From positions 1 through 64,000 of the forward strand of contig JAUNCG010000003.1 of the NCBI GenBank assembly GCA_030526715.1: 64,000 nucleotides of DNA, given 5' to 3'. The position numbers were made by a program, and so were the translations under genes. The notes beneath the pieces were generated by a model, which had not been told where the DNA came from, made no database searches, and was given only the letters and a program-made list of their open reading frames with translations. Positions 26,610-48,251 of the stretch are shown piece by piece; within the stretch, counting starts at the first letter, position 1, and each line of letters opens with the position of its first letter. This stretch comes from Eubacteriales bacterium. GTDB taxonomy: Bacteria > Bacillota > Clostridia > Lachnospirales > Lachnospiraceae.

Positions 26610-26663
26610 AGATACCATAGCAGTAAATGAGTTGGGTAAATGCTGATACAGGAGGAAGATGCT

Positions 26664-27836
26664 ATGGATGTAAATCGCGTTTTTGTGATCGTATTAGATA
26701 GCTACGGGATCGGGCATGCGCCGGATGCTGCGGCATTTGGAGATGAAGGGGCGAATACCCTCGGGACAATTCGCAGGTCGGAAAAATATCATACACCGAA
26801 TATGGAGAAGCTTGGATTATTTTGCATTGACGGTGTAGAGCCAATGGCTGATCAGCCGGAGTTGATCGGAAGCTACGGCAGACTTTGCGAGGCATCCAAA
26901 GGGAAAGATACTACGATTGGTCACTGGGAGATCGCAGGCATTATTTCGGAAAAGCCGCTTCCGACCTATCCGGATGGATTTCCGCGAGAGGTGCTGGAAG
27001 CATTGGAGAAGGCGACGGGACGAGGAATTCTGTGCAACAAGCCTTATTCGGGAACGGATGTAATCCGCGACTATGGAGATGAGCATGTGAAGACAGGGAA
27101 GCTTATCGTCTATACCTCTGCGGACAGCGTGCTGCAGATCGCGGCGCATGAGGAGGTGGTTCCGCTGGAGGAGCTGTATGAGATCTGCCATAAGGCGCGA
27201 GAGATCATGTTGGGTGAACACAGTGTTGGTCGTGTCATTGCGCGTCCTTTCGTGGGTGAGAGTGGAAATTATACCAGAACTCCCCATCGCCACGATTATT
27301 CTCTGAACCCGCCCGGACAGACCATGATGGATGCTATCGTGGAGCATGGGCTGGATACGCTGGGTGTGGGTAAGATCTACGATATTTTTGCGGGAAGAGG
27401 CATCTGCAAGACGATCAGCATTGAGAACAATGTGGATGGTATGAATAAGACGCTGGAGTTTCAGAAGGAAGATTTTCACGGACTTTGCTTCGTGAATTTG
27501 GTAGACTTTGATATGCTGTACGGTCATCGCAACGATATCGATGGATATGCCAATGCAGCGACGGTATTTGACGGACAGCTTGGAGAATTTATGAGCAGGA
27601 TGCGTGAGGATGATGTGGTCATCATCACCGCTGATCATGGCTGTGACCCGGGCTTTAAGGGGACAGACCACAGTAGAGAATGCATTCCGGTGCTGATTTA
27701 CGGAAAAGCCGTAAAAGCAGGCGTGAATCTGGGGACAGAGCATACCTTCGCCAACATCGGAGCCTCCGTGCTGGATATGCTCGGGGTACCGGGCGAGATC
27801 CGCGGGGAGAGCTTCTGGAAGAAGATCTGTAGGTGA
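26664..27836 (+). CDS. deoB: Phosphopentomutase
   Basis: Interconverts (deoxy)ribose-1-phosphate and (deoxy)ribose-5-phosphate in nucleoside breakdown. The 390-residue length fits. The alkaline-phosphatase-fold metal sites are visible in VLDSYGIG and in the C-terminal ITADHGCDPGF and GTDHSRE; TTIGHWEIAG matches the family core. ATG at 26664 follows GGAGG. It leads a run of nucleoside genes: cdd lies 72 nt on and pdp follows. Its product could feed the deoC at 39.4 kb. Confidence 0.95.
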   Translation: MDVNRVFVIVLDSYGIGHAPDAAAFGDEGANTLGTIRRSEKYHTPNMEKLGLFCIDGVEPMADQPELIGSYGRLCEASKGKDTTIGHWEIAGIISEKPLPTYPDGFPREVLEALEKATGRGILCNKPYSGTDVIRDYGDEHVKTGKLIVYTSADSVLQIAAHEEVVPLEELYEICHKAREIMLGEHSVGRVIARPFVGESGNYTRTPHRHDYSLNPPGQTMMDAIVEHGLDTLGVGKIYDIFAGRGICKTISIENNVDGMNKTLEFQKEDFHGLCFVNLVDFDMLYGHRNDIDGYANAATVFDGQLGEFMSRMREDDVVIITADHGCDPGFKGTDHSRECIPVLIYGKAVKAGVNLGTEHTFANIGASVLDMLGVPGEIRGESFWKKICR

Positions 27837-27908
27837 TCGGATCGAATTCATGGCGGGAATGCACAGTATCATGGCACGCTCGCAAAGCGCGGGGAAAGGA
27901 GGATGTGT

Positions 27909-28352
27909 ATGGAAATAAAAGAGATGATTCGACTTGCATTTGAAGCGCGCGAAAAAGCGTACACTCCATACTCGGGATTTAAGGTAGGAGCTGCACTACT
28001 GGCGAAAAACGGAGAGGTATATCAGGGCTGTAATATTGAAAATGCAGGTTATACCCCCACAAACTGTGCGGAGCGTACGGCATTTTTTAAAGCAGTGTCA
28101 GAAGGAATCATGGAGTTTGAGCGTATTGTGGTCGTCGGCGGAGCGGAAGGAACAGAGATGGGGGAATTTGACCTCTGTCCTCCCTGTGGCGTGTGCAGAC
28201 AGGTGATGCGGGAATTCTGTGATCCGGACAGCTTTGAGATCATTCTTGCCAAATCGGAGGAAGAATATAAGAGCTATCTGTTGAGGGAGATTCTGCCTCT
28301 TGGATTTGGACCGGATAAGCTGCTGAGCAGCTATTCGGTTATGAGTAAGTAG
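27909..28352 (+). CDS. cdd: Cytidine deaminase
   Basis: Zinc enzyme that deaminates cytidine and deoxycytidine. The 147 residues contain the catalytic CAERTAFFKA and the zinc Cys pair in PPCGVCRQVM. ATG at 27909 is preferred because AAAGGAGG ends right at an earlier ATG (27903), which is too close. The last nine residues (SSYSVMSK region) and the stop are supplied by the dispersed repeat at 28324-28380. With the base found in the other repeat copy, the stop would become Trp and add nine more residues. Confidence 0.94.
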   Translation: MEIKEMIRLAFEAREKAYTPYSGFKVGAALLAKNGEVYQGCNIENAGYTPTNCAERTAFFKAVSEGIMEFERIVVVGGAEGTEMGEFDLCPPCGVCRQVMREFCDPDSFEIILAKSEEEYKSYLLREILPLGFGPDKLLSSYSVMSK

Positions 28353-28380
28353 CGAAGCGGATTGCGAATATCCGCTTGAC
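28324..28380 (+). repeat. 57-bp dispersed repeat, copy 2
   Basis: It differs from 1354-1410 at one base (28351 A, making the cdd stop codon TAG). It overlaps the 3' end of cdd, and its internal hairpin (AAGCGGAT/ATCCGCTT) follows the stop. The two copies lie 27 kb apart next to unrelated genes. Confidence 0.8.
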
Positions 28381-28445
28381 TATACGTATGAGAATAAAGG
28401 AAACTCTCATAAAATGCAGCGTTATGAAACATGGAGGAAATCACT

Positions 28446-29768
28446 ATGAGAATGGTAGATTTGATTGAAAAGAAACGTGATGGAGGCGAGCTGGACGAAC
28501 AGGAAATACGCTGGATGATCCGGGGCTATGTGGATGGCGAGATTCCGGATTACCAGATGTCGGCGATGCTGATGGCAATTTATTTTCAGGGAATGACAAA
28601 AAAAGAGACGTCCGTGATGACGGACGCAGTGACGCATTCCGGAGATGTGGTGGATCTTTCGTCGATCCGTGGCGTGAAGGTGGATAAGCATTCTACCGGC
28701 GGTGTGGGAGATAAGACCACACTGGCTATCGCGCCGATCGTGGCGGCCTGCGGGGTAAAGGTGGCGAAGATGTCCGGAAGAGGCCTCGGACATACGGGCG
28801 GAACCGTGGATAAGATGGAGAGTATTCCGGGAATGCGGACAGATCTGAATGAGGAAGAGTTCTTTTCTGTGGTAAACCGTACCGGGATCAGCGTGATCGG
28901 ACAGTCCGGGAATCTGACTCCCGCAGATAAGAAGCTGTACGCGCTTCGGGATGTGACTGCGACCGTCAACAGTATTCCGCTGATTGCAGTATCCATCATG
29001 GGGAAAAAGCTGGCGGCGGGCAATGATGCCATTCTGCTAGATGTGACGACGGGAAGCGGCGCATTTATGAAGACGATGGAGGAAGCGGTGGCATTGGCGA
29101 AGGAGATGACAGCCATCGGTGAGAGCGCCGGGAAGCGTACCGTGGCGCTGATTACGGATATGGATCAGCCTCTGGGAAATACCATCGGTAATATTTTAGA
29201 GGTGCAGGAGGCAGTGGAAATCCTGCGAGGCGGCGGTCCGAAGGATCTTCAGGAGGTATGTCTGGCGCTGGCGGCCGATATGCTTTTTCTGGCAGGACAG
29301 GGGGATATGCAGACCTGTCGTGATAAGGTGCATGAGGTGATACGAGATGGTCGTGCTCTGGAAAAACTCGTCGAGATGGTGGAAGCGCAGGGCGGCGACA
29401 GCAGCTATATTCGTGATACAACGAAGTTCCCGAAGGCGCCCTATGAGACAGATGTCCTTGCAGACAGGGACGGCTATATTGTACATATGAATGCGCAGGA
29501 ATGCGGTGTGGCATCCTCCATGCTGGGAGCGGGTCGTGAGACAAAAGAGAGCGTTATTGATATGACGGCAGGTATCGTGCTTTTGAAAAAGACCGGAGAT
29601 GAGGTCAAAAAAGGTGATGTGCTCGCCAGACTCTATACCTCGCAGAAGGAGCGTCTGGAGGGGGCGTCAAAACGTTATCAGCAGGCGATCGAGATCGGTG
29701 AAAACCGCCCGGAGCACAGAAAAGAGATCCTTGCGAGGGTTGAGAAAGAGGAAGTAGTATATTTTTAA
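28446..29768 (+). CDS. pdp: Pyrimidine-nucleoside phosphorylase
   Basis: Phosphorolysis of uridine, thymidine and deoxyuridine to base and (deoxy)ribose-1-phosphate. It is 440 residues starting MRMVDLIEKKRDG, with GGVGDKTTLAIAPIVAA (phosphate site) and KMSGRGLGHTGGT. The family's C-terminal part ends near residue 440. ATG at 28446 follows GGAGG; an upstream ATG at 28431 has no site. Products go to DeoB two genes upstream. Pdp is more likely than thymidine-specific DeoA by this sequence type. Confidence 0.94.
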   Translation: MRMVDLIEKKRDGGELDEQEIRWMIRGYVDGEIPDYQMSAMLMAIYFQGMTKKETSVMTDAVTHSGDVVDLSSIRGVKVDKHSTGGVGDKTTLAIAPIVAACGVKVAKMSGRGLGHTGGTVDKMESIPGMRTDLNEEEFFSVVNRTGISVIGQSGNLTPADKKLYALRDVTATVNSIPLIAVSIMGKKLAAGNDAILLDVTTGSGAFMKTMEEAVALAKEMTAIGESAGKRTVALITDMDQPLGNTIGNILEVQEAVEILRGGGPKDLQEVCLALAADMLFLAGQGDMQTCRDKVHEVIRDGRALEKLVEMVEAQGGDSSYIRDTTKFPKAPYETDVLADRDGYIVHMNAQECGVASSMLGAGRETKESVIDMTAGIVLLKKTGDEVKKGDVLARLYTSQKERLEGASKRYQQAIEIGENRPEHRKEILARVEKEEVVYF

Positions 29769-29842: not shown

Positions 29843-30766
29843 TCAATGATCAGCAAGAAAAGCATCAACTTCTGTACGTGTCGGCATAGAAGGAGTGGTT
29901 CCTAATTTCTGAACGGAAAGTGCAGCGGTGGCATTTGCAAATCTTGCGGCATCCCATTCACTGTACCCTTCGGAAAGTGCGGTGAGAAATCCACCGTTAA
30001 AGGCATCGCCGGCTCCGGTAGTATCCAGTGCGTCTACGTGAAAAGCAGGAACTATTTCCTGACGACCGTCAGCTGAAATAAAAACGCCTTGCGAGCCCAT
30101 GGTGATCAATACTTTTTCCACTCCTTTATTGTGGAACACTTCAGCAGCTTTTTTTGCGCCTTCAAGATTTTTTACTGGAATACCGGTCAATTCTTCGGCT
30201 TCCACTTCGTTAGGTGTAACCATATAGACTTTAGATAAAAACTCATCGGAAATAGGAGCGTATGGAGCAGTATTTACGATGACTTTGGAACCATAACGAT
30301 TAGCAAGCTCGATAATCCTTTCGTTTGCATCTTGATTTACTTCCAATTGAAGAAGGACATAGGCGGCATCCTTGATAAAGTTTATCGTGCGGTCTGTATC
30401 TTCTTTAGTAATGGTTGCGCATGCACCGGGAACGATGACGATTTCATTTTCGCTGGTGTTTTGATCCACCAGAATGAGTGCGATGCCGGTGTCAGTATCA
30501 TCGGCAAAGAAAATACCGTCTTTGGGCATTCCTAATTCTGTCATGGTATTCAGTGCAACATCTGCAAAGGAATCGCGTCCCAGCTTGGTGATCATAGTCA
30601 CGTTGGCACCGGTCTTATGGGCGGCAACGCATTGGTTGAATCCTTTGCCGCCCGGTCCCATTTTGAAGAAGGAGCCCTTTACTGTTTCGCCCGAAATTGG
30701 CAGATGAGGGGTACGCCCCATCAGATCGACGACAAAACTTCCGAAAACTACGATTTTCTTTTTCAT
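29843..30766 (-). CDS. PfkB-family sugar kinase (ribokinase-like)
   Basis: ATP-dependent sugar kinase of the ribokinase family, 307 residues from MKKKIVVFG, preceded by AGAGG. The substrate-binding GGKGFNQCVAA and the catalytic motif DTTGAGDAFNGGF are intact. It is the last gene of the minus-strand operon, 19 nt after the aldolase. Ribose or deoxyribose are the obvious substrate guesses, but the neighbours (class II aldolase, DhaK-like proteins) suggest a ketose or an unusual sugar. The plus-strand arm has its own PfkB kinase. Confidence 0.88.
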   Translation of the reverse strand: MKKKIVVFGSFVVDLMGRTPHLPISGETVKGSFFKMGPGGKGFNQCVAAHKTGANVTMITKLGRDSFADVALNTMTELGMPKDGIFFADDTDTGIALILVDQNTSENEIVIVPGACATITKEDTDRTINFIKDAAYVLLQLEVNQDANERIIELANRYGSKVIVNTAPYAPISDEFLSKVYMVTPNEVEAEELTGIPVKNLEGAKKAAEVFHNKGVEKVLITMGSQGVFISADGRQEIVPAFHVDALDTTGAGDAFNGGFLTALSEGYSEWDAARFANATAALSVQKLGTTPSMPTRTEVDAFLADH

Positions 30767-30785
30767 ATCAAATCCTCTGTGCAAA

Positions 30786-31634
30786 TCAGAACTTAGAAAG
30801 CTCCAGCTTTTTGACAAGATAATTCATTAAGATTTCCTGTGCGTATCTGGCATAATCAAAGATAGCGCCGCCATCTGGATGCTCCTGAGTGTACTGTTTC
30901 ATGGTATCGTGATATAAGTGGAAAAATTCTGTTCCGACATTAAACTTGTTAATACCGTGTAAAAATGCCTCATTCAGTTGGTCGTCTGGAATGCCACTTC
31001 CGCCATGAAGGACGAGTGGAGTGTCAATAGTGTCGTTGATCTCACGCAGACGTTGAATATCAAGATGCGGAGTTTCTTTATATACTCCGTGTGCGCTTCC
31101 GATAGCAACTGCGAGTGCGTCAGCGCCGCTCTCGGTTACATATTTCTTAGCTACTTCCGGCTTTGTATACATATCAAGATTGGACTGATCATCACGATTT
31201 GCGGCGAAACCGACATGTCCGAGTTCTCCTTCTACTGCAACATTGAATGCATGAGCAATCTCGGTTACCCTTTTGGTGTTTGCGATATTTTCCTCCAGCG
31301 GAAGCATGGAACCGTCGTACATAACACAGGAAAAACCGGCCTTGATCGCGCGGATGATGTAGTTGATATCCTGACAGTGGTCGAGATGCAGGCCGACCGG
31401 AACGGATACTTCTTCGGCAACACTTTTTACTGCTGCGGCAAAAGTCTCTGGATTACACCAGTTATTCAATTCTGCGTGTTCCGGATATAACATGCAGAGA
31501 ACCGGTTTATTTACTTTCTCAGCAGCATGTACTACGGAGTCGATCATGTTATAGTCGATACAGTTGAATGCAATTACAGATGTGTTAGCATCGCTGGCCA
31601 TTTTAAGAATTTCTTTTACAGGTACAAGTGACAT
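30786..31634 (-). CDS. Class II (zinc) ketose-bisphosphate aldolase
   Basis: Cleaves a ketose-(bis)phosphate, releasing DHAP or DHA as one product in the family. It is 282 residues with zinc ligands in LHLDHC, VEGELGHVG (Glu), AIGSAHGVY (His) and LHGGSGIPDD (His). This is the FbaA/GatY/KbaY-like class. Substrate specificity cannot be read. It lies between dhaL-like and kinase genes in one operon, so its product may be passed to the DhaK-like proteins. Confidence 0.88.
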   Translation of the reverse strand: MSLVPVKEILKMASDANTSVIAFNCIDYNMIDSVVHAAEKVNKPVLCMLYPEHAELNNWCNPETFAAAVKSVAEEVSVPVGLHLDHCQDINYIIRAIKAGFSCVMYDGSMLPLEENIANTKRVTEIAHAFNVAVEGELGHVGFAANRDDQSNLDMYTKPEVAKKYVTESGADALAVAIGSAHGVYKETPHLDIQRLREINDTIDTPLVLHGGSGIPDDQLNEAFLHGINKFNVGTEFFHLYHDTMKQYTQEHPDGGAIFDYARYAQEILMNYLVKKLELSKF

Positions 31635-31686: not shown

Positions 31687-32328
31687 TCAAGCTTCGGCAG
31701 TGAAACTCTCTGCAAGCGCTTTGAAAATAATAGTTACGGATACAGCTCCGGTATCCGGATGCCCGATCGTCTTTTCGCGAAAATTTTTGGAGCGCCCCAT
31801 CCGGGAAATCATGGCCTTGGTGTTCTCCATTCCGCAGACAGATGCTTTTGCGGCTTCGTTAAGCGCGGATTCAAAAGAAAGATGTTCAACGACAGAATGC
31901 TTCAGTGATTCGGATGCCTCGATCAAAGCGTCATACATGGTTTTGTCGCCGCGATTTACACGACCACGTTTTTGGATGGCTTCGGTTCCTCCGCTGATGT
32001 ATGCGGAAAAATCGGCTAGCGTCAAGGATTCCTTTGATTCGATTGCGGAAAGTCCGCCGATAAAAAGTGTGCCGAAGATAACACCGGAAGTACCGCCCAT
32101 TACACGGATCAGTGTCATACCTGCTTCGTGAAGCAGATGATAGGGCGACTCATAGGTCATAACGGAAAGTTGTTTGTGAAGCGCTGTGAATCCGATGCGC
32201 ATCCCAATGCCGTGATCGCCATCGCCGATGACGGTATCCAGCTCTGTAAGCATGGGTTCTGCCTGAATAATAGAATCACAGACATGAAGAAGCGCGGATT
32301 TTAATTGCGCTGTGGTAATATCATGCAT
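31687..32328 (-). CDS. dhaL: DhaL-like ADP/ATP-binding kinase subunit (minus arm)
   Basis: This 213-residue protein is of the DhaL/Dak phosphatase-like family, the nucleotide-binding half of dihydroxyacetone kinases. It has the Mg-binding IGDGDHGIGM motif near residue 33 and a GGTSGVIFGTLF glycine stretch near residue 98. In DhaKLM systems DhaL carries a tight ADP that is re-phosphorylated by DhaM; no dhaM-like gene is in this window. It sits directly after the two DhaK-like genes. Confidence 0.88.
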   Translation of the reverse strand: MHDITTAQLKSALLHVCDSIIQAEPMLTELDTVIGDGDHGIGMRIGFTALHKQLSVMTYESPYHLLHEAGMTLIRVMGGTSGVIFGTLFIGGLSAIESKESLTLADFSAYISGGTEAIQKRGRVNRGDKTMYDALIEASESLKHSVVEHLSFESALNEAAKASVCGMENTKAMISRMGRSKNFREKTIGHPDTGAVSVTIIFKALAESFTAEA

Positions 32329-32356: not shown

Positions 32357-33325
32357 TTATAAGATGAAAGATTCTGTATAAATCCGTTTGCTCAGATAGT
32401 TTTCCACGGATTTGTCCGCACAGAGAAGTGTAACGGAAAAACCATACGAAATATCCATGCGAAGATAGTGTCCGGCACTGGTCTGCTTGATCGGATGCAC
32501 GGTGCTTGCATACTGATGAAAATACTTTACAAAGGAAAATAAATCTTCGTAAAGCGTGGAAAATGTTCGACTGACGACTAAGTGAAGATTTTCATCTTTA
32601 CAGGGCTTCAGATCCTGATAAAGATAATTGTACGCAAGCTTTACGGAATCTTGAAGCGTGAAACAATTTTGATGGATGATACGGGCTTTTTCTCCGGAAA
32701 TACCTTCGCCAAGCATGATAGTCTGATTTTGAAAATCGTATGTAACATTTAGGCTGCTCATGCGATTGCCGACGTGAGAAAGCAAACTTGCTATTTCATC
32801 TAGGGACTGTCCTTCTTTTGCGGCAGCCGAGGCAATCTTGGTAGTTAAAAGAGAACCGCCGATCAATCCTGTGCGTTCGTCGCGCGGAGCATTTGCATCG
32901 ACAGACAGACAATCGTCATGTACAGGTACGAGACGACCGCGATAACCCTCTAATTCTAATAATTCCAGAGCAAGATCATTGTTTAGTCCGTCTCCCATGA
33001 AATTGTTGTAGATTAGGATGTATCCGTGCGGGCTGTTGATATATTTGGCTGCTTCGTAAATATCGTAGGCGCTTGGTGCAGCACATGGACCGCCGTTAAT
33101 CCCGACATCACAAAAATCTTCTCCGGTAGGAAAACCGACGGCAAAAGGACCACCAAGTCCGCCGGCGCTGGTAATGATATTTACACGATTAGCATGAATG
33201 GGGTTGTGTAAAAGAGCTCGTCCGTTATATGAGGATTTAAGCGTCTGTACACGATCGGGATAGATCAATGCCATGCCATCGATGCAGTCTTTTGTAAGGC
33301 GATCCGGATTGGTCAGATATCCCAT
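32357..33325 (-). CDS. DhaK-like kinase subunit lacking both histidines (copy B)
   Basis: This 322-residue protein is recognisable as DhaK by YNNFMGDGLNNDL (the conserved catalytic Asp) and the overall order. Where active DhaK has GGGxGHxP, this has AGGLGGPF (no His). Where DhaK has GMGIHGEPG with the His that binds substrate covalently, it has GEGISGEK, Ser at about residue 210. Start at ATG 33325, with AGGAGG 8 nt before; an earlier in-frame GTG overlaps the site. The tandem copy at 33360 shows the same losses, so this looks like a distinct lineage rather than decay. Confidence 0.8.
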   Translation of the reverse strand: MGYLTNPDRLTKDCIDGMALIYPDRVQTLKSSYNGRALLHNPIHANRVNIITSAGGLGGPFAVGFPTGEDFCDVGINGGPCAAPSAYDIYEAAKYINSPHGYILIYNNFMGDGLNNDLALELLELEGYRGRLVPVHDDCLSVDANAPRDERTGLIGGSLLTTKIASAAAKEGQSLDEIASLLSHVGNRMSSLNVTYDFQNQTIMLGEGISGEKARIIHQNCFTLQDSVKLAYNYLYQDLKPCKDENLHLVVSRTFSTLYEDLFSFVKYFHQYASTVHPIKQTSAGHYLRMDISYGFSVTLLCADKSVENYLSKRIYTESFIL

Positions 33326-33359
33326 TTTTTCCACCTCCTGTTTTGGAAAATGTGTTTGG

Positions 33360-34316
33360 TTATAGAGTGATCGGTGAATCTTCTATCCAGAATGGCTGCA
33401 GTATATCATCGACGCAGAGCATACTGACGAAAAAGCCGTGTGTATTTAGAAGATAAGTATAATAATCAATGTTGATATCAGTAATTTGATGAAGGTGTGA
33501 AGCGTATTTTCTGATCTCATTTGTAAAAATATAGGCTTCTTCGCAGCGGGTCTGTTCCAGTCGGCTGACCAGAATACTGAGTTTGTTTCCGGATTGTGGC
33601 AGCAGATCGGAGGTTAAGAGATCATATACTGTTGATGCAGCCTGACTCATATGAAAACGATCGGGATAGGTCAATACCGGAGGCTCTCCGGAAAAACCGT
33701 TTCCCAGACAGATTGCATGCTGATGAAAATCAAAAGTGATGGTTACGGAGCTGATGCGATCGTTAGCATGTAGAAGAATACGGTGAGTTTCATCGAGCGT
33801 TAATCCTTTGCGCACACAGACGGAACCGATCTTAAGTAAATAAAGCAAGCCTGTGAGCCCGGTTCGTTCGTGACGGGGAGTGCCGGCAGGAACGGAGAGG
33901 CAGTCATCGGTACAGGGACAGAGCCTGCTTTCTATATTCTCAAGATGAAGCAGCTCACATGCAAGATCGTTGTTGAGATAGTCACCCATGAAGTTGTTAT
34001 AAATAAGAATGCTTCCCTTGTCTCGACCGATGGCCTTCGCAGTTTCATAAATATCGTAAGCGCTTGGAGCGGAGCGGATATTTCCGTTGACGGAAGCATC
34101 AGCCAGTTCTTTGCTCAGATATCCGGCGGACAAGGGGTAACACCCGCCTCCGCTGCTGACAATGAGTCGCACCTTGTGCTCCGGAAGATTTCTGCGAATC
34201 AAGACTCCTCCGTTGTGGGAGGTGTTGAGTGTCCGGTATTTTTGAGGATAAAGTGCGGCTAAACTGTCGATGCAATCGCGAGTGAGAGTATCGGTTTTGG
34301 TTAAATATTGATCCAT
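33360..34316 (-). CDS. DhaK-like kinase subunit lacking both histidines (copy A)
   Basis: First gene of the minus operon, 318 residues, paralogous to copy B (shared IYNNFMGD, LNNDLA, DDCLS, HERTGL). The His of GGGxGH is absent (SSGGGCYPLSAG) and the covalent substrate His is Ser at about residue 209 (LGNGFSGEPP). Asp of MGD is kept. It may form a heteromer with copy B and DhaL. The ATG at 34316 is preferred over the GTG at 34328, which overlaps the GAGG. Promoter 34354-34382. Confidence 0.78.
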   Translation of the reverse strand: MDQYLTKTDTLTRDCIDSLAALYPQKYRTLNTSHNGGVLIRRNLPEHKVRLIVSSGGGCYPLSAGYLSKELADASVNGNIRSAPSAYDIYETAKAIGRDKGSILIYNNFMGDYLNNDLACELLHLENIESRLCPCTDDCLSVPAGTPRHERTGLTGLLYLLKIGSVCVRKGLTLDETHRILLHANDRISSVTITFDFHQHAICLGNGFSGEPPVLTYPDRFHMSQAASTVYDLLTSDLLPQSGNKLSILVSRLEQTRCEEAYIFTNEIRKYASHLHQITDINIDYYTYLLNTHGFFVSMLCVDDILQPFWIEDSPITL

Positions 34317-34353
34317 ATGCTCCGTCACCTCATTTTCCTTAATAATTAATTTG

Positions 34354-34382: not shown

Positions 34383-34398
34383 GATAGATAATAACAAA

Positions 34399-34442
34399 AA
34401 CGAAAGCAAATAAAATCAACAAAGAAATGTTTGTTTTCGTTT
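34399..34442. promoter_or_regulatory. Candidate DeoR operator, inverted repeat
   Basis: AACGAAA (34399-34405) and TTTTCGTTT (34434-34442) form inverted half-sites just upstream of the minus-arm promoter. A single related GAAACGAAATG lies at 34606-34616. The rest of 34329-34700 is AT-rich with promoters but no gene. Confidence 0.4.
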
Positions 34443-34700: not shown

Positions 34701-35468
34701 ATGTTTACGGATGAACGACAGGAAAAGATAGAGCAGTATATTTTAAAAAATGATTCGGCAAGTGTACAGGAATTGAGTACGCTGTTTTCTGTATCAGAAG
34801 TTACGATACGGAAAGATCTGGAGGAGCTTCAAAAAGGAAACCGAATCGTACGTACCCACGGTGGGGCAAGAGTAAAATACTCAAATTCATCGTTATTTTA
34901 TTTTCAGGATCTTGTAGTGAAATGTCCTGAGGAGAAACATATCATTGCGCAAAAGGCACTGGAATTTATAGAGGATGGAGACACGATTTTCCTGGATGGC
35001 TCTACTACTACGAATGAACTGGCTTTTCTGATTCAGGACAGTGATTTGAAGGAATTGAAGGTGATTACCAGTTCGCTGTCGGTGGCGATGCTGTTTCAGG
35101 AGAATGAATCATACTCGGTTATGGTAATAGGCGGTTCTCTGAATAAGAGAATGAACACTGTGGAAGGGGCTTTTATGGAGCTGCAGATGTCGTATCTGAC
35201 AGTAGAGAAAGCGTTCATAGGAATCAATGGAATTGATGCTGAGTTTGGGTTTTCAACATCGGAAGTTACGGAAGCATCGGCAAAAAGGGCAATTTGCCGC
35301 TCGGCCAATCGCTGTTTTGTCATGGCAGATCACACAAAGTTTAATAAAAGGTATTTTATAAAGGCTTTTGATATAGACGGCGGTGCAGATTATCTGATCA
35401 CAAATGACAGGTCTGATCTGATAGATTATTCACCATATGAGGAAAAAATAAGCCTCATTTTGGCATAA
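34701..35468 (+). CDS. DeoR/GlpR-family transcriptional regulator
   Basis: This 255-residue repressor type has an N-terminal DeoR helix-turn-helix (VQELSTLFSVSEVTIRKDL, then VRTHGGA) and a sugar-phosphate-sensing domain (about 75-235) with FLDGSTTTNELA near residue 95. Such proteins bind phosphorylated sugar intermediates. It lies at the divergence point of the two arms and just before the transporter, so it is the likely local switch. CGAAA/TTTCG repeats are found around it. Confidence 0.9.
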   Translation: MFTDERQEKIEQYILKNDSASVQELSTLFSVSEVTIRKDLEELQKGNRIVRTHGGARVKYSNSSLFYFQDLVVKCPEEKHIIAQKALEFIEDGDTIFLDGSTTTNELAFLIQDSDLKELKVITSSLSVAMLFQENESYSVMVIGGSLNKRMNTVEGAFMELQMSYLTVEKAFIGINGIDAEFGFSTSEVTEASAKRAICRSANRCFVMADHTKFNKRYFIKAFDIDGGADYLITNDRSDLIDYSPYEEKISLILA

Positions 35469-35570: not shown

Positions 35571-36548
35571 ATGAAACTGAAGAAAATTGCAGCATCTACA
35601 TTAGTTGGAGTTATGATGGTGACTTCACTGTCAGCAGTAGCGATGGCAGGAAACAGCAAACCTCTCGAGATTGAGGGTGATTTTTCTGAAATGAATTGGG
35701 GCTTTATAGTTGGATCTTATGAGCATGTGTTCTATCAGAAGGTTGACGAAGGAATCCGTTTGGGATGTCAGGAGATCGGTTTGCAGGAGGATCAGTACAA
35801 TATCACAGACTGTAATCTGGAAGCGGATAAGGCAATTAATGCGATTCAGAATTTCACAGCAAACAAATGTAACGCCATTGCACTTGCATGCAATGATGCA
35901 GCAGGCTGCGTACCGGGTATCAATGAGGCGGCAGCAAACGGTGTGGCAATGTTTAACTTTGACTCTAAGGCAGCAGATCTGACAAATGTTATTTCTTTCG
36001 TTGGTACAGACAATTTTCAGGGTGGTGTACTTGGCGGAGAAGAACTGATCAGATTGTCAGAGGACGGAGATACGGTAGCGATTATAGGCAATCCGGAATC
36101 AGTTTCTACACTGGATCGCGAGAATGGCGCACTTCAGGCGTTGGAAGAGGCAGATCGTAATGTGCTTTCAGGCTATAACTATGAAGGCGACGCAAACCGC
36201 GCACAGGAAATCATGGAGACGATCCTTGTAGCAAATCCGGATTGTGCAGCAGTATTCTGCGCAGGCGATCCGGCGGCAACCGGAGCTATGGCAGCGATTA
36301 AGGCGGCAGGTTCTGACTGTAAGGTCGTTGGATTTGATGGAAATCCGGAAGCGCTTGAAGCTATGCTTGATGCAGAGAACGGCAAGACATGGGTATCCGA
36401 GATCGCACAGGATCCTGTTGGTATCGGCAGAGGTATCGTTGAACAGATGGCGAAATATTTCACCACAGGTGAAGTTGATGATCAGGTTATCATGATCAAT
36501 CCGTATATCATCACTGCTGAAAATGCAGCAGAGGAGTTGGGTAAATAA
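35571..36548 (+). CDS. Ribose-type sugar ABC transporter, substrate-binding protein
   Basis: This 325-residue Peripla_BP_4 protein of the RbsB class binds a sugar outside the cell. The signal peptide ends near AVAMAG, with no lipobox Cys. Binding-cleft regions such as ALACNDAAG, SFVGTDNFQGG and CKVVGFDGNPEAL are typical. AAGGAGG lies before the ATG. A strong hairpin follows, then the ATPase gene. The neighbouring DhaK, aldolase and kinase genes suggest a pentose, tetrose or branched sugar. Confidence 0.88.
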   Translation: MKLKKIAASTLVGVMMVTSLSAVAMAGNSKPLEIEGDFSEMNWGFIVGSYEHVFYQKVDEGIRLGCQEIGLQEDQYNITDCNLEADKAINAIQNFTANKCNAIALACNDAAGCVPGINEAAANGVAMFNFDSKAADLTNVISFVGTDNFQGGVLGGEELIRLSEDGDTVAIIGNPESVSTLDRENGALQALEEADRNVLSGYNYEGDANRAQEIMETILVANPDCAAVFCAGDPAATGAMAAIKAAGSDCKVVGFDGNPEALEAMLDAENGKTWVSEIAQDPVGIGRGIVEQMAKYFTTGEVDDQVIMINPYIITAENAAEELGK

Positions 36549-36607
36549 TCCAGCAGGAGTTTATTTTGAAAACGGTATAGTTTTATAAACTGCTTATTAT
36601 AAGTTGA

Positions 36608-36641
36608 GAATATGCCGGGCAGTTATGCCCGGCATATTCTT
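36608..36641 (+). terminator. Intra-operon hairpin after the binding-protein gene
   Basis: A perfect 14-bp stem (36608-36621 with 36626-36639), loop GTTA, weak T tract. It probably gives partial termination or protects the upstream mRNA so that the binding protein is made in excess. Confidence 0.75.
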
Positions 36642-36722
36642 ATGAAAAGAAGGTTCAGTGTCACCGATGAGCGGTGTCCGTGCTCGCTGGCATTATAGAA
36701 AACAACGAAAGGAATGAAGAAA

Positions 36723-38213
36723 ATGGAAGCTTGTTTACAGGTAAAAAACATCTCCAAGACCTTTCCCGGTGTAAAAGCACTTACAGACATCAGCATTGAT
36801 TTTTATCCCGGAGAAGCACATGCGCTTGTTGGAGAAAATGGTGCCGGAAAGTCAACTCTGATAAAAATAATTGCATCTGTATATACGGCAACGGAGGGAA
36901 AGATATATTTAGAAGGAAAGGAATGTACATTTAAATCACCGAAAGAGGCATTGGATGCAGGGATTTCTGTTATTCAGCAGGAACTTAGCATTGCACCAGA
37001 TCTGACGGTTGCGCAGAATATTTATCTTGGGTGCGAACCGCGCAAAGGTATTTGCCTTGATTATAAATTAATGGAGAAGAATGCACAGAAGGTTCTTGAT
37101 GAAATGGGATTGTCCATTGATGTGAAAGCCTATTGCCGTGATCTGTCGGCGGCAGAACAACAGATGGTTGAGATCGCCAAGGTAGTATCGAAAAATTCAA
37201 AAGTAGTGATTTTGGATGAGCCGACATCTTCACTTTCTGAAAAGGAGATCACATCATTGTTCCGACAGGTTCAGAGAATGAAGGAAAAAGGGGTTGCCCT
37301 GATTTATGTAACACACCGTATGAAAGAATTGTTTGAAATCTGCGATCGTGTCACAATATTCCGCGACGGTTGCAAAACAAAAGAAATGATGATCAAAGAT
37401 ACGAATGAAAAAGAAATCGTAGCGAATATGATCGGAAGAGAGAATCTGACAGATTATTATAATCGTCACAAACATACAATCGGAGAAGAAGTATTCCGCG
37501 TAGAAGACTTTTCTAGTGGAAAGCTTTTTCAGAATATTAATTTTCATCTTAATAAAGGAGAAATTTTAGGTTTTTATGGTCTGGTAGGAGCAGGCCGGAC
37601 GGAGACGATGGAGGCTATTTTTGGTGCAACGACACATGAAAGCGGTAAAATGTATCTCCATGGAAAAGAAATTGTTTTCCGTAAACCGTCAGATGCGATA
37701 GCGAAAAAGGTCGGTTTTGTGACGGAGGATCGTCGACGTACGGGGTTACTTCTTGAAAAGGCTATTTCAGAAAATATTGGTCTTCCCAGTCTTTTAGCAC
37801 ATGGACACAGAGGGCTGGTGAATACGAAATGGGAAGCGGATGTATCGTCGGAATATAAAGAAAAGCTGGCGATCAAAGCGCCTGATATATCAAGTATTAC
37901 GTCCACCCTTTCCGGTGGTAATCAGCAAAAAGTGATCCTTGCAAAGTGGCTTGCAGCCAATTCGGAGATTCTGATATTGGATGAGCCAACTAGAGGAATT
38001 GATGTAAATGCGAAATCGGAGTTCTATTCACTAATGTACAAGTTTGTGGAAAACGGCGGATCGATTATCATGATTTCTTCGGAAATGCCGGAAATCATCG
38101 GTATAGCGGATCGTGTATATGTTATGCGTGAGGGCAGGATCAGCGGAGAACTCGAAGCAGATGAATTATCTGAAGCATCGTTGATTGGAGCAGCAAGTAT
38201 TACCTCTGCATGA
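36723..38213 (+). CDS. Ribose-type sugar ABC transporter, ATPase
   Basis: This 496-residue RbsA-type protein has two ABC domains. The first has GENGAGKST, LSAAEQQMVEIAKVV and VILDEPTSSL. The second has a degenerate Walker A (GLVGAGRTE), which is normal for RbsA, then LSGGNQQKVILAKWL and LILDEPTRGID. AAAGGA precedes the ATG at 36723; an ATG at 36714 directly abuts the site and is less likely. It energises import with the permease downstream. Confidence 0.93.
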   Translation: MEACLQVKNISKTFPGVKALTDISIDFYPGEAHALVGENGAGKSTLIKIIASVYTATEGKIYLEGKECTFKSPKEALDAGISVIQQELSIAPDLTVAQNIYLGCEPRKGICLDYKLMEKNAQKVLDEMGLSIDVKAYCRDLSAAEQQMVEIAKVVSKNSKVVILDEPTSSLSEKEITSLFRQVQRMKEKGVALIYVTHRMKELFEICDRVTIFRDGCKTKEMMIKDTNEKEIVANMIGRENLTDYYNRHKHTIGEEVFRVEDFSSGKLFQNINFHLNKGEILGFYGLVGAGRTETMEAIFGATTHESGKMYLHGKEIVFRKPSDAIAKKVGFVTEDRRRTGLLLEKAISENIGLPSLLAHGHRGLVNTKWEADVSSEYKEKLAIKAPDISSITSTLSGGNQQKVILAKWLAANSEILILDEPTRGIDVNAKSEFYSLMYKFVENGGSIIMISSEMPEIIGIADRVYVMREGRISGELEADELSEASLIGAASITSA

Positions 38214-38249
38214 TCATACATCATATTTTATCATAGAAAGGGAAAACTA

Positions 38250-39242
38250 ATGAAAGAAATAAAGGTCAAAAAAATAATTTCGAATAATGTGATAGTTGTA
38301 TTTCTAGTGTTGCTGTGCTTATTTTTCGGCATCATGAATACGAACTTTTTCTCAAGTATAAATGTTATGAATCTTTTGTCCCAGATGTGTGTAAATGCAT
38401 TACTGGCCTCGGGTCTGTCCTTTGCCATTATTCTTGGCGGTATTGATATTTCCGTAGGATCGCAGATGGCGGTAACGGGCGTTGTGGCAGCGCTGATCGC
38501 ATCCAAGGTGGGGCAGATGAACTCTCTGACAGCGTTATTTATTCTGATCCTGTCAGCGATAGTAATAGGTGTGATCATTGGCGGAGTGATCGGCAGTTTG
38601 ATAGCATATGGTGGTTTGATCCCCATGATCTGTACACTGGCATTTTTGACGATACTCAGAGGTCTGGCCTATATCATCAGTGGAGGCGGTCCGATCTATG
38701 GACTGGATTCTAATTTCGGATGTCTCGGGGCAAAGCGCCTGATCGTTACCGGGAATTTTCCAAACGGTATGATTCCGACGAGTGTAATTTTTACGGTTAT
38801 CATTGTATTTATCATGCACTTTATTCTGTCAAAGACGATTTTCGGACGGCACGTTTTTGCCGTTGGCTCAAATAAAAATGTGGCGCATCTGGCAGGTATT
38901 GATGTAAAAAAAGTAACACTGATCAGCCATATGCTCTGTTCTGTCACGGCATGTATGGCGGGTGTGGTTACGGCATCTAAATTACAGAATGGTCAGCCGA
39001 ATATTGGTGAAGGATACGAGATGTTTGCGATTGCTTCCTGTGTACTTGGCGGTACTTCCCTAAATGGTGGACGTGGCTCTGTTGCGCGTGCGATGTTTGG
39101 CGTAGCAGTGATTGCAGTCATTAATAACGGAATGAATCTTCTGAATATTTCCGCTTACTGGCAGAAGGTCGTTATTGGCACGATCATCATCATCGCGGTG
39201 CTAGCAGATACCTTACAGCAAAAGCGCACGCAGAAAAACTAA
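38250..39242 (+). CDS. Ribose-type sugar ABC transporter, permease
   Basis: This 330-residue RbsC-type membrane protein has 8-10 hydrophobic helices. ILGGIDISVGSQMAVTGVVAA is the family signature, and the ATPase-contact loop reads GRHVFAVGSNKNVAHLAGIDV. It lies 36 nt after the ATPase gene with GAAAGGG upstream. It completes a standard three-gene importer. Confidence 0.92.
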   Translation: MKEIKVKKIISNNVIVVFLVLLCLFFGIMNTNFFSSINVMNLLSQMCVNALLASGLSFAIILGGIDISVGSQMAVTGVVAALIASKVGQMNSLTALFILILSAIVIGVIIGGVIGSLIAYGGLIPMICTLAFLTILRGLAYIISGGGPIYGLDSNFGCLGAKRLIVTGNFPNGMIPTSVIFTVIIVFIMHFILSKTIFGRHVFAVGSNKNVAHLAGIDVKKVTLISHMLCSVTACMAGVVTASKLQNGQPNIGEGYEMFAIASCVLGGTSLNGGRGSVARAMFGVAVIAVINNGMNLLNISAYWQKVVIGTIIIIAVLADTLQQKRTQKN

Positions 39243-39354: not shown

Positions 39355-39383
39355 TTGACAAACATAAAGGGAAGTATCATAAT
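39355..39383 (+). promoter_or_regulatory. Internal promoter before deoC
   Basis: TTGACA (39355-39360), 17-nt spacer, CATAAT (39378-39383). The 172-nt gap after the permease otherwise shows no gene. Confidence 0.55.
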
Positions 39384-39414
39384 ACTACTAAATAAATTAT
39401 TGGAGGAAATAGAA

Positions 39415-40074
39415 ATGCAGCCAAAAGAAATGTTACATTATGTAGATCATACATTATTAAAGCCAACTGCGACATGGGAGAGCATTAAGCATCTATGTGA
39501 TGAGGCGATAGAGTTTCAGACCGCATCGGTATGTATTCCGGCGTGCTATATTAAGAGAGTGCATGATACTTATGGTGAGAAGATCAATATCTGTACAGTT
39601 GTCGGTTTTCCGCTGGGCTACAGCGTGACGGAGGCGAAGCTTGTGGAGACACGTCAGGCGCTGGCAGACGGTGCAAACGAAGTGGATATGGTGGTAAATA
39701 TTACAGATGTGAAAAACGGTGATTTTAAAGCGGTTGAGGAAGAAATCGCAGCGCTGAAAAAAGAAGTGGGAGATAAGATTCTGAAGGTTATTATTGAGAC
39801 CTGCTATCTGACAGAAGAAGAGAAGATCGCACTTTGTAAAGCTGTAACCAATGCAGGCGCAGATTTTATTAAGACATCAACGGGCTTTGGTACTGGAGGC
39901 GCAACATTGGAAGATATTTTGCTGTTTAAGAAGAACATCGGACCAAACGTGAAGATGAAGGCAGCAGGCGGTGTGCGTAGCATAGAAGATCTGGAAGCGT
40001 TTATTGAAGCCGGATGTGCGCGTGTGGGTACCAGTTCTGCTGTAAAACTGGTAAAAGAAGTATTAGATAAATAA
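39415..40074 (+). CDS. deoC: Deoxyribose-phosphate aldolase
   Basis: Class I (Schiff-base) aldolase that splits 2-deoxyribose-5-phosphate into glyceraldehyde-3-phosphate and acetaldehyde, though relatives use other substrates. It is 219 residues. The Schiff-base Lys is in DFIKTSTGFG and a second conserved Lys in LKVIIETCYL; the N-terminus reads YVDHTLLKPTATW. TTGGAGG lies before ATG 39415. It is the first enzyme gene of the plus arm, followed by dhaK. Deoxyribose-5-phosphate from deoB/pdp could also feed it. Confidence 0.92.
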   Translation: MQPKEMLHYVDHTLLKPTATWESIKHLCDEAIEFQTASVCIPACYIKRVHDTYGEKINICTVVGFPLGYSVTEAKLVETRQALADGANEVDMVVNITDVKNGDFKAVEEEIAALKKEVGDKILKVIIETCYLTEEEKIALCKAVTNAGADFIKTSTGFGTGGATLEDILLFKKNIGPNVKMKAAGGVRSIEDLEAFIEAGCARVGTSSAVKLVKEVLDK

Positions 40075-40126: not shown

Positions 40127-40161
40127 CTGTGCTTTTGAAAAAAATAAAGGAGAAAAAGAGT

Positions 40162-41154
40162 ATGAAAAAAATTATGAATCGTGCAGAAGACTACACAGAT
40201 GAGATGCTCAGAGGTATTTACGAGGTACATCGGGGGAGAGTGAAATGTGCTGCAGATGATCTGAGATGCTATTGCACGGCAGAGAAGGTGGAAGGCAAGG
40301 TTGCCATCGTTACGGGAGGCGGAAATGGTCATCTTCCTTTATTTTTGGGCTATGTCGGAAAAGGAATGCTGGATGGATGCGGTGTTGGAGATGTATTCCA
40401 GTCGCCTTCCGGAAAACAGATTTATTACATTGCGAAGGAAGTGGAAGCGGGAGCGGGAGTCCTTTTTCTATATGGAAATTATACCGGAGATATTATGGTG
40501 TTTGATGATGCTTCGGAACGTCTGGAAATGGATGATATTGAGACGATGTCTATTGTTGGGGCGGATGATGTGAACAGCAGTGATGATGTGAATGTTCGTC
40601 GTGGTGTGGCGGGAATTTTCTTTATGTACAAAGCAGCGGGAGCGAGAGCAATGTCAATGGGGAATCTTCAGGAGGTTTATGATGCGGCCCAGAAGGCCAA
40701 AGAGAATACCCGGACGGTAGGATTTGCACTGACACCGTGTATTATTCCTGAGAAAGGCAAACCGAATTTTGAATTACAGGAAAATGAAATGGCGATGGGT
40801 ATGGGAATTCATGGAGAGCCCGGAGTCTGGAATGGACCGATCATGACATCATCAGAGATTGCAAAAGAGAGTTGTGATACGATTTTAAAAGATATGGAAG
40901 TAAAAGAGGGCGAGGAAGTTGCAATTTTGATCAACGGTCTTGGAAGTACCCCTTTGGATGAACAGTATATTCTTGCAAATGACGTCATTTGCTATTTAAA
41001 TTCCAGAGGGATCCGGGTTTACAGAAGCTGGGTTGGTGAGTTTGCAACCAGTATGGAAATGGCAGGTGCATCTATCACAGTATGCAAAGTAGATGAGGAA
41101 TTGAAAGCGTGGTTTGAGATGCCGGTGGATACGCCGTTTTATAAACAGAACTGA
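40162..41154 (+). CDS. dhaK: Dihydroxyacetone kinase subunit DhaK
   Basis: Substrate-binding half of a DHA-type kinase, 330 residues. All catalytic landmarks are present: GGGNGHLP (His57), NYTGD (Asp110) and GMGIHGEPG (His217, which binds the keto-sugar covalently in the family). AAGGAG precedes the ATG. DhaL is encoded 30 nt downstream. No DhaM phosphoryl donor gene is in the window, so the donor may be ATP or a DhaM encoded elsewhere. The substrate may be DHA or a related short ketose such as erythrulose. Confidence 0.92.
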   Translation: MKKIMNRAEDYTDEMLRGIYEVHRGRVKCAADDLRCYCTAEKVEGKVAIVTGGGNGHLPLFLGYVGKGMLDGCGVGDVFQSPSGKQIYYIAKEVEAGAGVLFLYGNYTGDIMVFDDASERLEMDDIETMSIVGADDVNSSDDVNVRRGVAGIFFMYKAAGARAMSMGNLQEVYDAAQKAKENTRTVGFALTPCIIPEKGKPNFELQENEMAMGMGIHGEPGVWNGPIMTSSEIAKESCDTILKDMEVKEGEEVAILINGLGSTPLDEQYILANDVICYLNSRGIRVYRSWVGEFATSMEMAGASITVCKVDEELKAWFEMPVDTPFYKQN

Positions 41155-41184
41155 TGATATGATTCAAAAATGGAGAGGAATATT

Positions 41185-41823
41185 ATGGAAAGGATAACGA
41201 TAGAACAGCTGCCGGCACTTTTTCGCTCAATTGCGTTACAGTTTGAAAAAAATGAGGAATTATTGTGTGAGATGGATAGTCGGATGGGAGACGGTGATCT
41301 TGGATTAACCATGAGAAAAGGATTCTGCGCTATGCCAAAGATACTTGAGGAAATGGATGAATCGGATTTTGCAAAAAAAATTCGCAAAATTGGAATGGAA
41401 ATGACAGATATTGTTCCGTCTACCATGGGAATGTTGATGGGAACCGGAATTGCATTCGGAGGAAAAAATCTTGCGGGGAAAGACGGTATGGATGCAGAAG
41501 GTGTTGTTCTGTTTCTTGAAGGATATAGTGCAGGAATTGTGAAACGCGGAAAATGTGAGCGTGGAGACTGTACCGTGTTGGATGCCATTGCTGCTGCAGC
41601 GGATGAAGCAAGAAAAGCGGCCGAGGAAGGAAAAAATCTTGCCGGTGTATGTGTAGCGGCGCGGGATGGAGCGGAGAAAGGAGCTGAAGCAACCAGAGAA
41701 ATGTTGCCGAAATTTGGGAAAGCAGCCGTACACAGAAATGTTGCGCTAGGGGTCATGGATCAAGGTGCAATGGCCGGATTGCTTTTTGTAAAAGGGCTGA
41801 CAGATTATATTTTAAAGAAATAA
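41185..41823 (+). CDS. dhaL: Dihydroxyacetone kinase subunit DhaL (plus arm)
   Basis: Nucleotide-binding partner of DhaK, 212 residues. The Mg-phosphate motif is MGDGDLGL near residue 34; the Asp residues are kept, with Leu in place of the common His. GRxxxxGDCTVLDA-like and GAxxTREMLPKFG-like stretches follow the family. ATG at 41185 follows GGAGAGG. It is clearly distinct from the minus-arm DhaL at 31.7 kb. Confidence 0.9.
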   Translation: MERITIEQLPALFRSIALQFEKNEELLCEMDSRMGDGDLGLTMRKGFCAMPKILEEMDESDFAKKIRKIGMEMTDIVPSTMGMLMGTGIAFGGKNLAGKDGMDAEGVVLFLEGYSAGIVKRGKCERGDCTVLDAIAAAADEARKAAEEGKNLAGVCVAARDGAEKGAEATREMLPKFGKAAVHRNVALGVMDQGAMAGLLFVKGLTDYILKK

Positions 41824-46699: not shown

Positions 46700-48229
46700 A
46701 TGCAGTTAAAACCTGAAGAAATTTCAAAGGTCATCCGAAGCCAGATCAAATATTATGAGAACGCTATTCAGCAGGATGAGACAGGCACCGTTTTGATGGT
46801 TGGTGACGGTATCGCGAGAGCGAGCGGTCTGATCAACTGTATGGCAGGTGAATTGCTGGAATTTGAGGATGGCAGCTTCGGAATGGCACAGAATCTGGAG
46901 GAAAACAGTGTCTCCATTGTATTGTTCGGAGACGATTCCGGAATCGGTGAGGGACAGACGGTAAAACGTACCGGCAAGGTTGTATCCGTACCGGTAGGCA
47001 AGGCGATGATCGGCCGCGTAGTGAATGCGCTGGGACAGCCGATCGATGGTGCAGGTCCGATCGCGACCGATGAGTTTCGGGCGATCGAGAGTCCGGCTCC
47101 GGGTATCTGTGAGAGAAAGGGAGTAAATCAGCCGCTGCAGACCGGTATCAAGGCCATCGACTCCATGGTACCGATCGGAAGAGGACAGCGTGAGCTGATC
47201 ATTGGCGACCGTCAGACCGGTAAGACGACTCTGGCGGCAGATACGATCATAAATCAGAAGGGTGAAGATGTGATCTGTATCTATGTAGCGATCGGACAGA
47301 AGCGTTCCACCGTAGCGACACTGGTGGAGAATCTGACTAAGAACGGCGCAATGGATTACACCATCGTCGTGGCAGCTACGGCATCGGAGGCGAGTCCGCT
47401 GCAGTATATTGCACCGTATTCCGGGTGCGCAATGGGCGAATACTTTATGAATCAGGGCAAGGATGTGCTCATCGTTTATGATGATCTGAGCAAGCATGCG
47501 GTAGCTTACCGTGCGCTGTCCCTGCTGATCCGTCGTCCGCCCGGACGTGAGGCTTATCCGGGTGATGTATTCTATCTGCACTCCAGACTTTTGGAGCGTG
47601 CAGCGAAGCTGGATGACGCACATGGCGGCGGCTCACTGACGGCTCTGCCGATCATTGAGACTCAGGCCGGAGACGTATCCGCGTATATTCCGACCAACGT
47701 GATCTCTATTACGGACGGTCAGATCTTTCTGGAGACCGAGCTTTTCCACTCCGGCGTTATGCCGGCGGTAAACCCGGGTATTTCTGTATCCCGAGTGGGC
47801 GGCAACGCTCAGATCAAGGCGATGAAAAAGGTAGCGGGAACCTTGAAGCTGATCTATTCTCAGTATCGTGAGCTGCAGAGCTTCGCACAGTTCGGTTCCG
47901 ATCTGGATGCCGACACAAAGGCTCGTCTGGATCAGGGCGCACGTATCGTTGAGGTACTGAAGCAGAATCAGAACGCGCCGGTTCCGGTAGAGAAGCAGGT
48001 GGCGATCCTGTATGCGGTAACGAAGGGTGTTCTGTCTGAAGTGGCGGTAGAGGATGTCAGAAGCTATGAATCCGGACTGTTCACATGGCTTGATACGGAT
48101 GTTGACGGGGCTGCAGCGATGCAGGAGATCCGCTCGACCGGTAAGCTAGAGGCAGATACCGAGGAAAAAATGAAGAAGTCTCTGGAGGCGTATACACGAC
48201 AGTTTCTGGATACGCGCCCAGCGAAATAG
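46700..48229 (+). CDS. atpA: ATP synthase F1 subunit alpha
   Basis: Regulatory nucleotide-binding subunit of F1, 509 residues. Walker A is GDRQTGKTT, and [18 protein letters not shown] precedes it. The arginine finger region is in the conserved [17 protein letters not shown] stretch. It forms the alpha3beta3 hexamer with AtpD. Confidence 0.97.
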
Positions 48230-48251
48230 AGAGTGATCGGAGGAGTTATAG

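Follow-up and report, generated by a model that had tools for sequence, protein, structure and literature searches.

The window, by which we mean the whole 64,000-nucleotide stretch of DNA analyzed here, belongs to a 2.4-Mb draft genome; among relatives, those assigned to a named family are mostly Lachnospiraceae. The genes of interest form two divergent arms, with the following features.

29843 to 30817, minus strand: PfkB-family kinase, ribokinase-like, at the end of the minus arm (TIGR02152, 320.6 bits; cut-off 299.65)
30786 to 31634, minus strand: class II aldolase, predicted ketose-1-phosphate aldolase (PF01116, 6e-82)
31687 to 32328, minus strand: DhaL, intact ATP-binding partner (TIGR02365, 165 bits; cut-off 138; GDGDHG kept)
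32357 to 33334, minus strand: His-less DhaK paralogue A (Dak1, PF02733, E = 7e-33)
33360 to 34328, minus strand: His-less DhaK paralogue B (Dak1, E = 2e-39), from a GTG; the likely start is the ATG at 34316
34398 to 34442: inverted repeat AAACGAAAGCAAA/TTTGTTTTCGTTT separating the two gene arms, a candidate operator for DeoR (13-nt arms, 92% complementary)
34701 to 35468, plus strand: DeoR-family regulator (PF00455/PF08220)
35571 to 39242, plus strand: ribose-type ABC importer (SBP, PF13407)
39355 to 40074, plus strand: deoxyribose-phosphate aldolase DeoC (TIGR00126, 232.9 bits; cut-off 117.3)
40129 to 41154, plus strand: canonical DhaK of the GHLP type with both histidines (Dak1, 7e-108)
41170 to 41823, plus strand: DhaL partner of the canonical DhaK (PF02734, 9.5e-35)

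The importer consists of genes for the SBP (35571 to 36548), an ATPase (36714 to 38213) and a permease (38250 to 39242), all on the plus strand, and the plus arm also encodes a second PfkB protein. Upstream of the A/B loci, no common operator motif was found beyond the single inverted repeat of the window. Positions 26640 to 29768 hold phosphopentomutase-like, cytidine deaminase-like and pyrimidine phosphorylase-like genes, named by sequence inspection. Among the neighborhoods read, this deo gene set and DeoC flank the system only in the window and at its nearest relative, L098, and a nucleoside-derived sugar was therefore rejected as the general substrate.

Active sites of the minus-arm DhaK paralogues

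A and B belong to the Dak1 family (PF02733), for which they score 114 and 136 bits (cut-off 31.4). With 95.9 bits (A) and 109.7 bits (B), both stayed below the cut-off of 406.25 of the DhaK equivalog TIGR02363, as did the canonical DhaK of the window, at 337 bits. The canonical protein reads GGGNGHLP and GMGIHGEP at the two histidine motifs. The corresponding motifs are AGGLGGPF and GEGISGEK in A, and SGGGCYPL and GNGFSGEP in B. The roles given here to DhaK residues follow the work on the E. coli protein. The original prediction held that in both proteins the covalent substrate histidine is replaced by Ser, the histidine of GGGxGH is missing, the Asp of the GD motif is kept and the DhaL neighbor is intact. 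All four statements agreed with the alignment: the E. coli H218 position is Ser in both (S213 at 32696 to 32698 in A; S213 at 33690 to 33692 in B), the H56 position is G61 in A (33152 to 33154) and C63 in B (34140 to 34142), the catalytic D109 is retained as D115 in A and D116 in B, and the DhaL encoded at 31687 to 32328 carries GDGDHG. The further statement that both histidines had been lost in the same way applied to H218 only, since the H56 position is Gly in one copy and Cys in the other.

The AlphaFold models of A and B had pLDDT values of 94.1 and 92.6, and for both the best PDB match was L. lactis DhaK 3ct4 (TM 0.85 and 0.83, respectively). Selection was estimated from the closest sister pair; between the window and L098, dS was saturated. 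In the sister pair, dN/dS was 0.154/1.57 (approximately 0.10) for A and 0.142/1.99 (approximately 0.07) for B. Judged from these sequences, both A and B look functional and under purifying selection.

A profile search of genome contigs yielded 41 loci of the Ser type; a single-protein search of the same contigs gave no match. These loci, the matches of whole-genome searches and E. coli DhaK were combined in an alignment of 137 DhaK homologues, a sample that is biased because it was drawn with a divergent profile. At E. coli positions 56, 109 and 218, the alignment contained 81 His/Asp/His proteins, 48 proteins with Asp and Ser at the last two positions, and 7 with Asp and Asn. No protein of the Ser or Asn class had His at 56, and D109 was present in 137/137. 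Loss of only one histidine was seen in no full-length homologue; one truncated sequence lacked the 56 region.

The pocket is changed beyond the two histidines. With the canonical DhaK of the ATP- and PTS-dependent dihydroxyacetone kinases (E. coli, L. lactis, C. freundii), A and B share the Dak1 fold, D109 and a DhaL, but they lack H56 and H218 as well as a 13-residue loop, and they carry S80A, K104N and F113N. In the Ser class, the substitutions were S80 to Ala (common to the Asn class too), K104 to Asn, F113 to Asn and N183 to Arg, and the loop ahead of the H218 strand had 16 residues instead of 29. A clade-wide check of the alignment columns detected no conserved replacement His, Lys or Cys. 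The highest frequencies in any column were 24% for His, 76% for Lys and 67% for Cys, and with this low value for His a conserved replacement histidine from elsewhere in the sequence was rejected. Four of the six B-clade proteins have GGGCHP, with a His one residue off the H56 position; B of the window has Tyr there.

Inheritance of the histidine loss

The tree was computed with the two trait columns (56 and 218) left out. All Ser-type proteins, including A and B, fell on one side of a branch with an SH-aLRT of 100. A second branch (SH-aLRT 86) likewise had all Asn-type proteins on a single side. The Ser-type proteins thus form one clade, and the histidine loss was therefore inherited from one ancestor. 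Parallel changes in A and B, as originally predicted, were thereby ruled out. Within the clade, support was 99 for the A-type group, 90 for the B-type group and 99 for the two joined; on this tree, the tandem pair is one later local duplication that came after the histidine loss.

The prediction that the changes are conserved and are not random decay fared better: Ser was found at 218 in 45/45 clade members of the tree and His at 56 in none, the dN/dS is approximately 0.1, the fold is confident, and the clade spans two phyla, Bacillota and Synergistota. Many of its members are from rumen and gut. The class is rare: among 299 genomes belonging to the same bacterial family, we detected two more strong matches (G226 and G038) and one weaker match (G170). 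A search of openly available literature found no account of a His-less DhaK or a DhaK-type ketose kinase. Within that literature, this branch of the DhaK family without the histidines is previously undescribed.

Linked DhaL and aldolase genes

The DhaL metal-binding motif GDGDH was retained in 39/39 loci. Mirror-tree correlations were 0.90 for DhaK and DhaL, 0.84 for DhaK and the aldolase, and 0.85 for DhaK and the SBP. Among DhaK, DhaL, aldolase and SBP, r ranged from 0.83 to 0.90, and none of 2,000 Mantel permutations was as high. Of the Ser loci, 36/41 had an aldolase gene within 6 kb, as did 6/7 Asn loci; the figure for canonical DhaK loci was 0/20, and 12 of these 20 carry DhaM instead. 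DhaK was the sole basis for choosing the loci, so this linkage was not built into the sample. A DhaM (TIGR02364) search of the window's genome gave no match; PTS dependence of A and B was therefore rejected, and ATP is the likely donor. Importer orthologues adjoin the His-less DhaK in most relatives, and a canonical DhaK is adjacent in 8/41 relative loci. The DeoR gene, divergent in the window, lies between DhaK and DhaL in L114, L116, L118 and L121-L124.

Aldolase residues were numbered as in Giardia FBPA, in which R259 and R280 contact the C6 phosphate of the substrate; the R280 column falls in a gappy loop. R259 and R280 of this enzyme bind fructose bisphosphate, and the kcat/Km of 2.4e6 falls to 866 in the R259A mutant (PMC6692403). 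In the aldolase of the window, N253 and T256 are retained, and D255 is changed to Gly, R259 to Phe and R280 to Phe. The same pattern was found in all DhaK-linked aldolases of the Ser class: N253 and T256 were retained in 36/36, position 255 was Gly in 36/36, position 259 was Phe or Leu in 36/36, and position 280, with the reservation that this column is gappy, was Phe, Leu, Gln or Ala in 36/36. The class II tagatose/fructose-bisphosphate aldolases KbaY and GatY share with the linked aldolase the PF01116 family and the metal and DHAP-side residues. In contrast to its Phe or Leu, however, E. coli KbaY and GatY, as well as KbaY-like paralogues near several of the loci, have Lys or Arg at both positions. 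The residues there are Cys and Leu in E. coli YdjI, whose annotation is octuluronate-1-phosphate aldolase. Loss of the basic C6-phosphate residues together with retention of the DHAP side, seen in 36/36, leads us to predict from sequence that the linked enzyme splits a sugar phosphorylated at C1 only, i.e., that it is a ketose-1-phosphate aldolase. This aldolase is the strongest clue. At L111, L116, L119 and L124, genes for a KbaY-like aldolase, a KbaZ-like protein and a PfkB kinase lie after the aldolase on the opposite strand, beside the Ser-type operon.

The second His-less class carries Asn in place of H218 and was found at L143-L148 and L037. Its operons contain, in varying order, a regulator, DhaK(Asn), DhaL, a 1-phosphofructokinase, a GatY-like aldolase and an importer. 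The 1-phosphofructokinases scored 297.5, 293.4, 293.0, 290.8, 289.2 and 267.7 bits against a TIGR03828 cut-off of 292. The aldolases retain R259 and have Lys at 280, with the exception of an extra aldolase in L146; the L037 aldolase is a partial match only. The two classes offer an independent comparison: the C6-phosphate site is kept where a second kinase is present, as in the Asn class, and is lost in most of the Ser class, whose operons lack that kinase. Both classes fit a common first step, conversion of a ketose to a ketose 1-phosphate by His-less DhaK and DhaL.

Several other genes were observed near these operons. At L130, a gene for D-psicose 3-epimerase, which acts on free ketoses, begins 46 bp downstream of the aldolase (431 bits; cut-off 300), a hint from one locus, pointing to a free ketohexose substrate. 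The genome of the window encodes two D-psicose 3-epimerases above the curated cut-off, on another contig (G000:C79:27614-28468 and 48226-49083). In a Ser-class subgroup (L132-L135), genes for a MalE-type importer, a rhamnulokinase-like FGGY kinase and an AraD-type protein are located upstream of DhaK-DhaL-aldolase. Uroporphyrinogen decarboxylase-like genes, recognized by sequence inspection, are present in or beside the DhaK operons of L143 (5259 to 6506), L144 (4482 to 5723) and L145 (12798 to 14833).

A proposed ketose 1-kinase and its alternatives

We propose that His-less DhaK and DhaL probably constitute an ATP-dependent ketose 1-kinase, which binds the sugar non-covalently and whose 1-phosphate product is split by the linked aldolase. 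Substrate, C1 regiochemistry and non-covalent binding are what we infer, beside the sequence, tree, synteny, selection and fold, which are observed. The adjoining ABC transporter would import a free ketose, and A/B, with the adjacent DhaL as the ATP carrier, would phosphorylate it on the hydroxyl of C1, adjacent to C2, the counterpart of the position that DhaK phosphorylates in dihydroxyacetone. DhaK holds dihydroxyacetone as a hemiaminal to His (PMC6429413), and the hydroxyl that it phosphorylates adjoins the carbonyl. The ketose would be mostly in ring form, without a free carbonyl, so that in our proposal the hemiaminal to H218 would not be used and the His pair would be dispensable. Ser (or Asn), together with the pocket altered at H56, S80 and K104 and the 13-residue loop deletion, would hold the ketose non-covalently. 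D109 would still be the catalytic base, and D109 and the DhaL-ATP site would transfer the phosphate to O1. The aldolase would then cleave the ketose 1-phosphate to DHAP and an unphosphorylated aldehyde. Since human TKFC and the Citrobacter DHA kinase, both of the canonical type, also phosphorylate glyceraldehyde (PMC6429413), the canonical DhaKL of the window and of the 8/41 loci may use this aldehyde product.

With some reserve, we lean toward a wider reading, in which the Ser and Asn classes are both non-covalent ketose 1-kinases and define undescribed bacterial ketose-1-phosphate routes, the Ser class via a ketose-1-phosphate aldolase and the Asn class via 1-phosphofructokinase and a ketose-1,6-bisphosphate aldolase. 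In the mammalian route, ketohexokinase, aldolase B and triokinase (a DhaK-DhaL fusion) convert a ketose via its 1-phosphate to DHAP and glyceraldehyde; its 1-kinase is a PfkB protein, whereas the one proposed here would be of the DhaK family. E. coli YdjH/YdjI (octuluronate kinase and 1-phosphate aldolase) follow the same logic with a PF01116 aldolase lacking both basic residues, although YdjH is a PfkB-type kinase, unlike the DhaK-type kinase here. Some observations speak against a ketose 1-kinase. The ribokinase-like PfkB protein of the minus arm is unexplained by the Ser-class model and could add a second phosphate, and the gene content of L132-L135 may mean that the substrate there is another one or an intracellular intermediate.

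The latter point bears on a related reading, that A/B are an active kinase whose substrate is not a neutral free ketose but some other small or unusual compound (tetrulose, keturonate, deoxy-sugar or polyol), and that the aldolase cleaves the 1-phosphate of this compound. YdjI, the nearest functional parallel of the aldolase site, is annotated for octuluronate 1-phosphate, some loci have AraD-type and rhamnulokinase-like genes, and the importer matches no specific sugar assignment; however, the pairing of the Asn class with 1-phosphofructokinase and the epimerase at L130 suggest ordinary ketohexoses, and we regard this reading as rather unlikely. Division of labor between the copies is a separate question. 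Most Ser-type loci have a single DhaK copy with DhaL and aldolase. A occurs without B at L099 and L103-L105 (and G226, which contains L103, has no B elsewhere), B occurs without a neighboring A or DhaL at L107, and in intact pairs B always precedes A and has a distinct motif, GGGC[HY]P. We infer that A would be the copy able to stand alone and B a duplicate, serving as heterodimer partner or for wider specificity. Occurrence of A alone, the fixed gene order and the motif of B would also suit the possible, if doubtful, arrangement in which kinase activity belongs to A alone, with B as the non-catalytic subunit or allosteric partner of an A/B heterodimer. Against this, B retains D116, S213 and the remaining residues that are invariant in the clade, and selection on it is purifying; the arrangement is compatible with a ketose 1-kinase.

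The original prediction had left the choice between a new kinase chemistry and a regulatory pair. Changed chemistry or substrate is the best reading, with no replacement His conserved, and the regulatory half, modeled on DhaQ/DhaS, was not supported. In this improbable alternative, A/B would be paralogues with a regulatory role, comparable to L. lactis DhaQ or to E. coli DhaK in its action on DhaR, and would sense a sugar for DeoR. A DeoR gene is present within 6 kb in 23/41 loci and in several of them sits between DhaK and DhaL, E. coli DhaK binds DhaR (structure 4lrx), and B is alone, away from DhaL, at L107. DhaQ, the coactivator of the L. lactis dha genes, is itself a DhaK paralogue, and A and B have folds similar to it (TM 0.80-0.84). 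However, A and B scored 61.1 and 73.3 bits against the DhaQ cut-off of 413.25 (TIGR02362), the adjacent regulator is DeoR rather than a DhaS-type (TetR) protein, and DhaQ retains the His at 56 that A and B lack. Moreover, most loci have one copy only, D109 is always present, the aldolase is tightly linked, and the dedicated DhaL is coinherited (r = 0.90) and intact, with GDGDH in 39/39. That A/B are decaying pseudoenzymes, as absence of both classical active-site histidines might suggest, is very improbable given their full length, high-confidence fold, dN/dS of approximately 0.1 and conservation across two phyla.

Among kinases, DhaK is the textbook example of substrate recognition by a covalent bond to His. 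If the proposed ketose 1-kinase is correct, the coordinated loss of this bond and the matching change in the aldolase would show how the family shifted from trioses to larger sugars, and proteins whose best family matches all say dihydroxyacetone kinase would be given a function. It would also mean that gut and rumen anaerobes have an unrecognized route for free ketoses, possibly including rare ones such as allulose.
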